A model generated the notes under the pieces. The model did no database searches and was not told the origin of the DNA. It saw only the letters and a program-made list of their open reading frames with translations. Of a stretch of 34,284 nt of DNA, positions 29,073 through 34,284 are shown one piece after another. The position numbers were made by a program, and so were the translations under genes. The DNA is taken from IMG/VR virus record IMGVR_UViG_3300046466_000220, positions 1 through 34,284 of that record; one strand, written 5' to 3'. How positions within the stretch are numbered: position 1 is the stretch's first letter; each line of letters begins with the position of its first letter. The stretch comes from a virus.

Positions 29073-30518
29073 TTAATTGAAATAAACTATCTTCCCTTTG
29101 CCATTGCCCCAAATCTCTTTGTTTACTGCCATCACTAAACAGTCAACCATGTCGTCATGTTTTGCTGCTGGAAATTTAGAAAGTTGGTCAAGAAACTCTT
29201 CATTCCATTTACCATTTAATAAACTTACTCTACCACTCTCAAGCGATGCACTAATGTCACTTACTCTCGCTACCTTGTCTTTTGTTGGCGGCTTGTCTTC
29301 CTTTACATTAAGCCCTGTTTCTCTAATTAGTGTTTGTACAATAGATTTACCAGATGCTTTTGGTTCTACATATATTCTGCTTTTTGGTGTGTATCCATTT
29401 TTCTGCACCCACTCTGGAATAAACTTTACAAGTTCTGGAAACTCTTTCCTGACATTTACACAATCTACTATCTGCCATTTATTATCTACATATGTATATG
29501 CTAGTAATGCTGATGGGTCATTCTTTTGATTTGCGGTATATGCTGGGTCTATAATAAAATTTATTGTTGCTTCTTCTTTTCTGTACCTATCTATCTTAAA
29601 CCAATCTCTATGTATCATCCCACTATCTAGTGGTGTTGGTGTTTGCTGTAGTTGACCAGCATACCCATAAGTACCCAAAGCACTTCTGTAATCATCTAAT
29701 ACTTTCTTACTAAATCTTTCCTCCCAAAACAAACCTGTTTTTTTATCGTAGAACTTGCCAAGTGATTTTGGTTTTATATTTCCATCTTCATTTGTTGCTG
29801 GTATACATATGTGTTTATAATTTAATCTTGTTTCTTTGTCTAGTAAGAATCCACTTAAATCTTCTTCATGCACTCTTTGCATAATAATTATTCTCACTCC
29901 AATGTCCGCTTGATTGAGTCTTGAGTAGAATGTTGTCCTATACCACTCATTTGCATTATCCCTTTCAGTTGCTGAGTTTGCCATTTGTGGTGATAGGGGG
30001 TCGTCCACTATTAGGAAGTCACCCCCCTGACCAGTAACTGTACCACCAACAGATGTTGCTCTTCTCATTCCAATATGATTATTCTCGTATCTCTCTTTTA
30101 GATTTTGGTCTTTCTTGATAAAGAAAACATCACTCCATCTTTTCTTAAACCAATCACTAAATATTATATCTCTTGACTTTGTTGATAGTTCAATAGATAG
30201 TGTTGCGGAATAAGATGAGGTTATAAATCTTAGTTTTGGAGATTTTATCCAAGCCCATACTGGAAACATAACTGTAACTATTAAAGACTTTGTACTACGA
30301 AAGGGTACATTAATAATTATGTCTTTTGTCTTTGGCTCTTGTCTTATTATTCTTTCGCACTCTGCCTGTAGTATGTCGCATATATATTTATGATGCCAAT
30401 TAGTAGACAGGGGTACTGCTGGTTCTACTACATGCCATGCAGATTTAAAGAACTCATAGAAACTCATCTCACAAAGTTTCTTTTCAAGAGCAAACTTTAG
30501 CAGTTTTTTATTCGTCAT
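29073..30518 (-). CDS. terminase large subunit, 481 aa
   Basis: The packaging motor. ATPase half: Walker A-like NVPFRSTKS (about 70-78, deviant but usual in terminases), Walker B DFLIVDDPLS (about 167-176), coupling region MQRVHEED. Nuclease half: IDPAYTANQ (D324), YVEPKASGKS (E385) and KHDDMVDCLVMAV (D455, D456, D459), the three-acid RNase H-like site. Length fits the family. It overlaps the small subunit gene by 11 bases and is followed by a short gap. Confidence 0.9.
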   Translation of the reverse strand: MTNKKLLKFALEKKLCEMSFYEFFKSAWHVVEPAVPLSTNWHHKYICDILQAECERIIRQEPKTKDIIINVPFRSTKSLIVTVMFPVWAWIKSPKLRFITSSYSATLSIELSTKSRDIIFSDWFKKRWSDVFFIKKDQNLKERYENNHIGMRRATSVGGTVTGQGGDFLIVDDPLSPQMANSATERDNANEWYRTTFYSRLNQADIGVRIIIMQRVHEEDLSGFLLDKETRLNYKHICIPATNEDGNIKPKSLGKFYDKKTGLFWEERFSKKVLDDYRSALGTYGYAGQLQQTPTPLDSGMIHRDWFKIDRYRKEEATINFIIDPAYTANQKNDPSALLAYTYVDNKWQIVDCVNVRKEFPELVKFIPEWVQKNGYTPKSRIYVEPKASGKSIVQTLIRETGLNVKEDKPPTKDKVARVSDISASLESGRVSLLNGKWNEEFLDQLSKFPAAKHDDMVDCLVMAVNKEIWGNGKGKIVYFN

Positions 30519-30921
30519 CTAGTTCTGTGTATTCAATATCTTCTGCATCTTCAAGACCTCTGATTTGATTTTTAATATCATCAAGTGTTGCCCCTTCACT
30601 TAAATTAATTTCAATCTTAGTATCGGTGTCCTTCTTAATTTCTGTTGATGATAATTTAGGCATAGCATAGTTCATTAGTTTTGCTATTGCATCTATGTAG
30701 GCTCTAGGGTCTTCATCAAATAAAATATCCAATGCCATCTTAATCTTTACTGGTTGTCCTTCTAATGCGTAGGCTAATGACTTCCTTGTCATCTTTGCCA
30801 CTTGTCTTGCTTCATTATTTTTTGGCATTAAAGACTTTGGTGTCTTATTATAATTTTCATCTATCTTACCAAGTTGAGGTCGCTTCTTCCTTGCCTCTTC
30901 CCCTAATTTCTTTTCTTCCAT
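30508..30921 (-). CDS. terminase small subunit, 137 aa
   Basis: Recognises phage DNA to start packaging. Basic N-terminus (LGEEARKKRPQLGKIDENYN), a middle helix pair including RQVAKMTRKSLAYALEGQPV, then KIKMALDILFDEDPRAYIDA with YAMPKLSSTEIKKD (a typical small-subunit piece before the large subunit), and an acidic C-terminus (DAEDIEYTELDDE). First gene of the late block, immediately before the large subunit. Confidence 0.7.
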   Translation of the reverse strand: MEEKKLGEEARKKRPQLGKIDENYNKTPKSLMPKNNEARQVAKMTRKSLAYALEGQPVKIKMALDILFDEDPRAYIDAIAKLMNYAMPKLSSTEIKKDTDTKIEINLSEGATLDDIKNQIRGLEDAEDIEYTELDDE

Positions 30922-31595: not shown

Positions 31596-31880
31596 TTACA
31601 ATACTATATAATTAGTCTTATTGATATTTAAACTGTCTAAGGTCTTTAAGTTTATAGTTCTATACTTATTTATGTGCATATCATAAACAATTATTAAATC
31701 GTGTTTGCTTGGGTCATATGGTCGCTGCTTTGCATCTTTTTTTAGATGCTTTTTTACCCCAAGTCTGGCCAACATTATACGCCTAGTAAAATCTTTTTTA
31801 GTAAATGAAGCCGAAAATATCTTGCCCTTACTTTCATTAATAAGTTCTTTTGCTTTTGTTTTATCTATTTTTTTATTCAT
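31596..31880 (-). CDS. SH3 barrel/WYL_2-like small phage protein, 94 aa
   Basis: The layout, a basic helical start (TKAKELINESKGKIFSASFT), then KDFTRRIMLARLGVKKHLKK, a linker, and two strands ending DLIIVYDMHINKYRTINLKT, follows a common phage family with an Sm/SH3-like barrel (WYL_2-like) and unknown role. Last gene of the early operon, followed by the terminator. Start context TAAACAATG as in the neighbouring genes. Confidence 0.65.
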   Translation of the reverse strand: MNKKIDKTKAKELINESKGKIFSASFTKKDFTRRIMLARLGVKKHLKKDAKQRPYDPSKHDLIIVYDMHINKYRTINLKTLDSLNINKTNYIVL

Positions 31881-33605: not shown

Positions 33606-33636
33606 CAAATATACGACACTTTTTAACATTACCAAA
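33606..33636 (-). promoter_or_regulatory. Bacteroidota-type early promoter
   Basis: On the minus strand: TTTG (33636-33633), exactly 19 bases, then TATATTTG (33613-33606). This is the consensus of primary flavobacterial promoters. The start of transcription would be near 33600, about 34 bases before the membrane protein gene. Confidence 0.85.
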
Positions 33637-33720
33637 CAAAATGTTAAAAATATTACATTAATATTCTAATTTATAATGATTCTAAATAACTAAATATCAA
33701 CGCTTTATATACAGAAACAG

Positions 33721-33786
33721 GCGTGTGTGGGCGTGTGTGCGTATAGAGCAGACCTAGCAGTTTCACCAGCAGTTTCAGCAGTTTCA
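33721..33786. repeat. short repeats downstream of the VRR-NUC gene
   Basis: A GT-rich 10-bp pair (GCGTGTGTGG at 33721-33730, GCGTGTGTGC at 33731-33740) is followed by three copies of AGCAGTTTCA (33756-33765, 33768-33777, 33777-33786). A partial copy, CAGTTTC, occurs at 33802-33808 in the end of the gene. They lie in the non-coding gap and could be a protein-binding array or slippage products. Confidence 0.7.
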
Positions 33787-33800
33787 GGGAGATTTCTCTA

Positions 33801-34157
33801 TCAGTTTCTTTTAGGAAGTTTCATGTACCAATCAAGAACATCCATACACTCTTCAAGACCTTTAACAACTTTTGCAAAGTATCCAGCATTGTTTAGATAT
33901 TCTACCCATTCTTTTTGTTCTTTAGTTGGGTAGCAGGTTTTGTCTGCTTTTATTTCTAGGAATAGTCCAGCGTAAAGGCTGTTTACTTTTAGTATTTGCA
34001 TATCTGGGAATCCTTTTACATAGCCAGTTTTCTTTGCTAATACTGCCTGTTTCATAGAGGTTCTTATGCCGCCTAAACTGGCACAGTATCTTAAGTCTGG
34101 ATAACTGTACTTCATGTATGTGCAAAACGCTGATTGTACTTGGGCTTCTTTTTTCAT
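33801..34157 (-). CDS. VRR-NUC domain nuclease, 118 aa
   Basis: A compact PD-(D/E)XK nuclease of the VRR-NUC type (virus-type replication-repair nuclease). The core reads SLGGIRTSMKQAVLAKKTGY, then KGFPDMQIL (D52) and AGLFLEIKADK (E68, K70), followed by the QKEWVEYLNNAGYFAKVVKG helix-strand. It is likely to act on branched or damaged DNA in replication or repair. It stands between the G-run repeat and the AGCAGTTTCA repeats and lies upstream of the early promoter. Confidence 0.85.
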   Translation of the reverse strand: MKKEAQVQSAFCTYMKYSYPDLRYCASLGGIRTSMKQAVLAKKTGYVKGFPDMQILKVNSLYAGLFLEIKADKTCYPTKEQKEWVEYLNNAGYFAKVVKGLEECMDVLDWYMKLPKRN

Positions 34158-34168
34158 AGTGATGGCTA

Positions 34169-34213
34169 CCCCCCTATACCCCCCTATGCCCCCCTATGCC
34201 CCCTATATCCCCC
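34169..34213 (-). repeat. 10-bp tandem G-run repeat with G-quadruplex potential
   Basis: On the minus strand: five G runs of 5-6 bases separated by 4-5 AT-rich bases (GGGGGG-TATA, GGGGGG-CATA and so on), starting at 34213 and ending at 34169. The repeat period is 10 bp. This meets the usual G-quadruplex pattern (four or more G runs, loops of 1-7). It spans the stop of the HTH gene and the leader of the VRR-NUC gene, and it stands out in this AT-rich window. Confidence 0.85.
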
Positions 34214-34284
34214 TCTGTATAGGTCGTACCCTTGATGAGTTGGTACATCAAAGGTTGAGATACGCTGTATTTTCTGGCAAGAGA
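34174..34284 (-). CDS. C-terminal end of an HTH-containing protein, cut by the window edge
   Basis: The visible part begins SLARKYSVSQPLMYQLIKGT and ends in a tail coded by the G-run repeat (GDIGGIGGHRGV). The LARKYSVSQPLMYQLIKG segment is a helix-turn-helix, as found at the end of HNH/AP2-type phage nucleases and small regulators. The stop (34174-34176) lies within the repeat, so changes in repeat number would alter the last residues. Confidence 0.5.
   Translation of the reverse strand, partial: SLARKYSVSQPLMYQLIKGTTYTEGDIGGIGGHRGV

Follow-up and report, generated by a model that had tools for sequence, protein, structure and literature searches.

A position-changing G-run array at the early/late boundary of a phage family is probably a control element, and one not dedicated to the adjoining nuclease gene

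Among the described systems closest to the element considered here is mitochondrial CSB 2, where G tracts bring about transcription termination via a hybrid quadruplex and the length of the tract is variable (PMC5027508). DNA:RNA hybrid quadruplexes need a minimum of two tracts on the non-template strand (PMC3905843), and a survey of putative quadruplex sequences in dsDNA phages has recorded their frequencies, which for Bacteroidetes phages come to 0.41 per kb (PMC8036883). A separate literature concerns psNUC and stNUC, phage VRR-NUC Holliday junction resolvases that cleave four-way junctions (PMC4103454).

The locus described here lies near the end of a linear virus contig of 34,284 nucleotides (IMG/VR record IMGVR_UViG_3300046466_000220), the whole of which is called the window and whose main genes are all on the minus strand. 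Along the direction of transcription the order is early genes (DnaA-C-like, HTH_36, nuclease), HTH, the array, VRR-NUC, small genes, a WYL_2/SH3-like gene and the terminases, which lie ~3.2 kb past the array. The features are as follows:

34174..34284 (-): 3' end of a small HTH gene (...SLARKYSVSQPLMYQLIKGTTYT-EGDIGGIGGHRGV*), whose final 13 codons pass through the array
34169..34213 (-): G-run array, G5, G5, G6, G6, G6, with linkers ATATA, CATA, CATA, TATA
34158..34168 (-): remainder of the leader, from the last G run to the VRR-NUC start codon, read from the sequence
33801..34157 (-): VRR-NUC nuclease gene, 118 aa, Holliday-junction-resolvase-like fold by Pfam, PHROG and PDB matches
33606..33636 (-): Bacteroidota-type promoter-like site TTTG-N19-TATATTTG, after VRR-NUC, from a motif scan
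31596..31880 (-): WYL_2/SH3-like gene (WYL_2, PHROG 2267), whose homologue's leader holds the array in another class of genomes
30508-30921 (-): terminase small subunit, assigned by position and type
29073-30518 (-): terminase large subunit

The HTH frame is already open at the contig end, its TAG stop (34176-34174) falls within the array, and full-length relatives of the protein have 71 aa plus the tail. The last G of the array stands 11 nt before the VRR-NUC ATG (34157). The VRR-NUC protein of the window matches Pfam VRR_NUC at E=1e-4, slightly below the curated cutoff, PHROG 5702 at E=4e-12 and the VRR-NUC entry PDB 4qbl at E=6e-12, and it satisfies the PD-(D/E)XK core, with P51 D52, E68 and K70 invariant across 23 relatives. 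For the WYL_2 assignment, the homologue in genome L193 scores 33.9 bits (E=4e-8), over the cutoff, and the window copy 25.9 bits, below 26.7. Short direct repeats (GGCGTGTGTG twice, and CAGCAGTTT units) lie 3' of VRR-NUC at 33720-33787, adjoining the promoter-like site, and may form part of a regulatory region. By the motif scan, this site follows the array in the window, whereas in the other array class the equivalent promoter precedes it. Because promoter-like sites of the TTTG/TAnnTTTG type, typical of Bacteroidota, are present and the terminases nearest to those of the window belong to phages of Croceibacter, Chryseobacterium and Cellulophaga, the hosts are probably flavobacteria, marine ones for the family. 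A search of host genomes with the VRR alignment returned distant relatives only, and a comparable array was not found in cultured flavobacterial phages with related terminases.

An earlier note on this DNA had pointed to five runs of 5-6 G, 10 bases apart, across the HTH stop and the VRR-NUC leader, and they are present at 34169-34213 on the minus strand: in transcription order, G5 at 34213-34209, G5 at 34203-34199, G6 at 34194-34189, G6 at 34184-34179 and G6 at 34174-34169, with a start-to-start spacing of ~10 bases. In a window of 33% GC, five runs of at least five G within 45 nt compare with a maximum of two in dinucleotide shuffles, none of 300 coming close, and with both strands scanned this is the sole cluster of at least three G4+ runs. 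Over the whole window, G4+ runs number 82 on the coding strand and 9 on the opposite strand, with ~60 expected by shuffles, a mild genome-wide excess; since single G4 runs thus exceed the shuffle expectation on the coding strand, lone runs are unremarkable and the cluster alone is exceptional.

How widely the runs are kept was assessed in 80 loci recovered by VRR-NUC protein search alone, with no G pattern used. G runs occupy the HTH-VRR junction in 76 of them (75 with at least three G4+ runs, one with two G6 runs) and are absent from four (L030, L077, L079 and L081). Across the whole collection, 91 distinct arrays provide the statistics: runs are mostly of 5 G (246) or 6 G (98), linkers measure 4-5 nt, and run starts are most often 9-10 bases apart within a range of 6 to 13. 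Of 334 internal runs, 320 (96%) follow an A, and 71% follow TA. Each array has 2-7 G4+ runs, and in all of them the G strand is the coding strand, a bias inseparable from replication direction since all genes are co-oriented. Each long contig has a single noncoding array. The rapid change in repeat number that had been suspected is indeed seen between close relatives, with unit number varying where VRR genes are 1-2% apart.

Some observations at the edges of the collection belong beside these. In L061 (120-205) a short hydrophobic glycine-rich ORF (MAIPGGEAGAVISGVLAGIGGIGGKG) replaces the expected HTH before VRR-NUC, and its 3' end makes the G runs. In two unrelated AT-rich phages with related terminases (L337:1361-1384 and L349:2646-2672) the large terminase gene is preceded, at a distance of ~130-180 nt, by a G-run array that lies on the opposite strand. 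G-run/TA arrays of unrelated phages were set aside, their orientation and context being mixed with no common rule. A generic scan allowing any 5-base linkers was likewise discarded, as it matched mostly poly-G contig ends; among the IMG/VR pattern matches (L085-L203), many contigs terminate in long poly-G tracts that are probably sequencing or assembly artefacts.

Pattern scans brought out a second class of genomes, in which HTH directly overlaps VRR-NUC and the array is found 1.5-2.7 kb past the start of VRR-NUC, where it occupies the WYL_2 leader directly behind a small hydrophobic ORF. A third clade has the order VRR-NUC, HTH, array, WYL_2 gene. Among loci in which both sites can be seen, 44 have the array at the junction only, 28 at the WYL_2 leader only, none at both and three at neither. 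These loci are related to one another rather than independent, and some were found via the G pattern itself, so that the array-less number is a lower bound, yet mutual exclusivity is not produced thereby. On the best VRR tree few state changes are needed, with at least two switches between sites, and the L159-type clade is nested within junction-array genomes. The three genomes without an array at either visible site indicate that it is dispensable. Dedicated control of the nuclease, as the earlier note had proposed, falls by the very condition that the note had set for refuting it: many relatives retain HTH and VRR-NUC with the G runs missing from between the two and the array standing ahead of another gene, and the three array-less genomes are also at odds with it. 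Because the downstream gene differs between relatives, the array more likely acts on passage across the early/late boundary than on any single protein, and it is probably a real control element, not dedicated to the adjoining nuclease gene.

Codon use bears on what is selected. In array tails 62% of Gly codons are GGG, against 18% in the window, and 73% of Arg codons are AGG, against 17%; the genome's usual codons are GGA/GGT and AGA. In half of the distinct junction arrays G runs are still present past the HTH stop, all three phases occur, and an RGGG motif conserved in the same HTH protein is coded AGA GGT GGT/GGA GGT, free of G runs. The codon contrast, the arrays that pass the stop and the RGGG motif without G runs argue for selection on nucleotides, and it is very probable from these comparisons that the array has been selected as a nucleic-acid element. 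The tails themselves vary from 1 to 27 aa and differ in sequence, which, with half of the arrays outrunning the stop, speaks against a switch of the HTH tail as the function of repeat-number change. The WYL_2-leader genomes, the third (shuffled-order) clade excepted, have GGG-coded G runs in HTH loop codons. Confined to WYL_2-leader genomes, L193 (2256-2285) and its clade relatives show a conserved patch of G4, G6 and G7 within the HTH coding sequence, written in rare GGG/AGG codons.

As to what such an element might form, the description of the array as quadruplex-like holds at the level of prediction, with a median G4Hunter score of 2.38 for the arrays of the family. The canonical pattern, defined as four G3+ tracts joined by loops of 1-7, is satisfied by the window array and by 65 of the 91 distinct arrays, or 82 if loops up to 12 are allowed. 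Of the 91 arrays, 82 have a quadruplex in their predicted RNA fold; the same holds for 154 of 200 shuffled versions of the core of the window array, so that the predicted fold is informative of little besides G content. In 12 of 91 arrays there are just three G3+ runs, and such three-tract arrays recur across separate lineages; a canonical intramolecular quadruplex is thus not universal, and the three-tract arrays are compatible with a hybrid quadruplex because this needs a minimum of two tracts. A hairpin with a C-rich partner was rejected, as just 2 of the 91 arrays have CCCC within 200 nt. In R-loop-forming sequences a G-rich extension zone (~40% G) follows the G clusters. Past the phage arrays such a zone was not found, the next 100 nt having a median of ~17% G (about 17-19%) and a maximum of 23%, and this low G content makes a long R-loop unlikely.

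Our preferred reading, to which we would give a probability of roughly 0.4, takes the array for a cis element that works during transcription in the form of a G-quadruplex, perhaps a DNA:RNA hybrid. Three to seven coding-strand G runs stand at one of two junctions between early replication genes and the late region, and gene order suggests that they would be transcribed. As transcription passes, G tracts in the non-template DNA strand that it displaces, in the nascent RNA, or in both may fold into a G-quadruplex, which could include a DNA:RNA hybrid form needing just two tracts from the DNA strand. The fold would slow or attenuate transcription, and perhaps translation, through the junction, and it may keep the RNA on the template.

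A doubtful alternative is that an RNA quadruplex in the mRNA leader sets the translation of the next gene, VRR-NUC here and the WYL_2 protein elsewhere. Every array does stop just short of a start codon, with 1-39 nt left to that of VRR-NUC and 35-75 nt to that of the WYL_2 gene, and RNA quadruplexes are predicted. The target gene, however, would change between relatives, and where the array is absent HTH simply overlaps VRR-NUC, so that translation control of one fixed gene does not fit; moreover, the WYL_2-class array lies mostly beyond the ribosome footprint, and gene junctions of phages may merely tolerate such sequence.

It is also unlikely, judging from the base patterns, that the array consists of binding sites at which the HTH protein or a host factor would recognise TAGGGGG units for regulation or replication. 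The A and TA ahead of internal runs could reflect protein recognition rather than a quadruplex, run length is narrow (5-6), a ~10-bp spacing is common, and an HTH gene is near or adjoins the array in nearly all genomes. Spacing nevertheless ranges from 6 to 13 without helical phasing, and tandem duplication by itself could keep the linkers similar.

A DNA site for packaging (pac/cos) or replication we consider very unlikely. There is one noncoding array per genome, close to the early/late boundary, the terminase small subunit lies 2.5-3.7 kb past it in several lineages, and contigs frequently break there, 9 of 80 in the 85 nt that follow HTH as opposed to 25 over the 1.9 kb beyond. The breaks, however, are spread over the array and the sequence ahead of it, as those at a fixed terminus would not be, and many contigs run straight across; a pile-up of contig ends at scattered positions is consistent with a stretch that is hard to sequence or assemble. 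A terminase distance of ~3 kb that looked constant in several lineages, and is 3-4 kb in most, fails in the L193 clade, where it is 6-10 kb with other late genes intervening and where a second G cluster is present in the HTH gene. The array thus has neither a fixed place by the terminase genes nor a fixed genome end, which weakens the packaging site suggested by the earlier note; its recombination site is unsupported as well, since the distance correlation across the array (0.53-0.71) is similar to that within VRR-NUC (0.62-0.75) and shows no drop.

It is highly improbable that the array is a neutral, functionless G-run minisatellite maintained by slippage: unit number does change quickly between close relatives and a few genomes have lost the array, but retention is family-wide at one of two positions, and run length and orientation are held in a genome of 33% GC. 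That the array exists to encode a Gly/Arg-rich HTH tail is scarcely credible and largely refuted, for although the HTH frame stays open through part of most junction arrays and the tails are 42% Gly and 15% Arg, the rare codons, the three phases, the run past the stop and the copies in noncoding leaders tell against selection on the tail, and array-free HTH proteins finish at KK.

Set against the known systems, psNUC and stNUC belong to the same fold family as the gene beside the array, a likeness that concerns the neighbour and not the array itself; nothing was found to connect the enzyme with G runs, and the case warns that adjacency to a nuclease gene is not evidence for a link. With the putative quadruplex sequences of dsDNA phages the array shares its G4Hunter score and its fit to the canonical pattern. 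The survey (PMC8036883) describes no conserved, single-copy, position-changing array, unlike what is seen in this family; quadruplex motifs of phages are usually reported as frequencies only, and here comparison suggests that one array per genome is under selection, as seen from the contrasting codon use within the same gene and from the array's alternative positions. In the limited literature searched, neither a published description of such an array nor quadruplex papers on flavophages were found, and the array is best seen as a variant of G-tract regulatory elements, itself apparently undescribed in that literature. Putative hybrid quadruplex sequences are those of warm-blooded animals and lie near transcription starts, whereas the phage array is at an internal operon junction. 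CSB 2 belongs to another genome and another polymerase and has two adjacent tracts where the phage array has 3-7 spaced ones; its termination has been demonstrated, and any termination or priming at the phage array would be putative. It is a speculative and decidedly unlikely extension of the co-transcriptional quadruplex that the relocatable array might be a counterpart of CSB 2, a hybrid quadruplex timing the early-to-late switch or priming replication, with its length as an evolvable rheostat. Whether G-tract structures regulate phage transcription is a question for which this family provides a compact test case.
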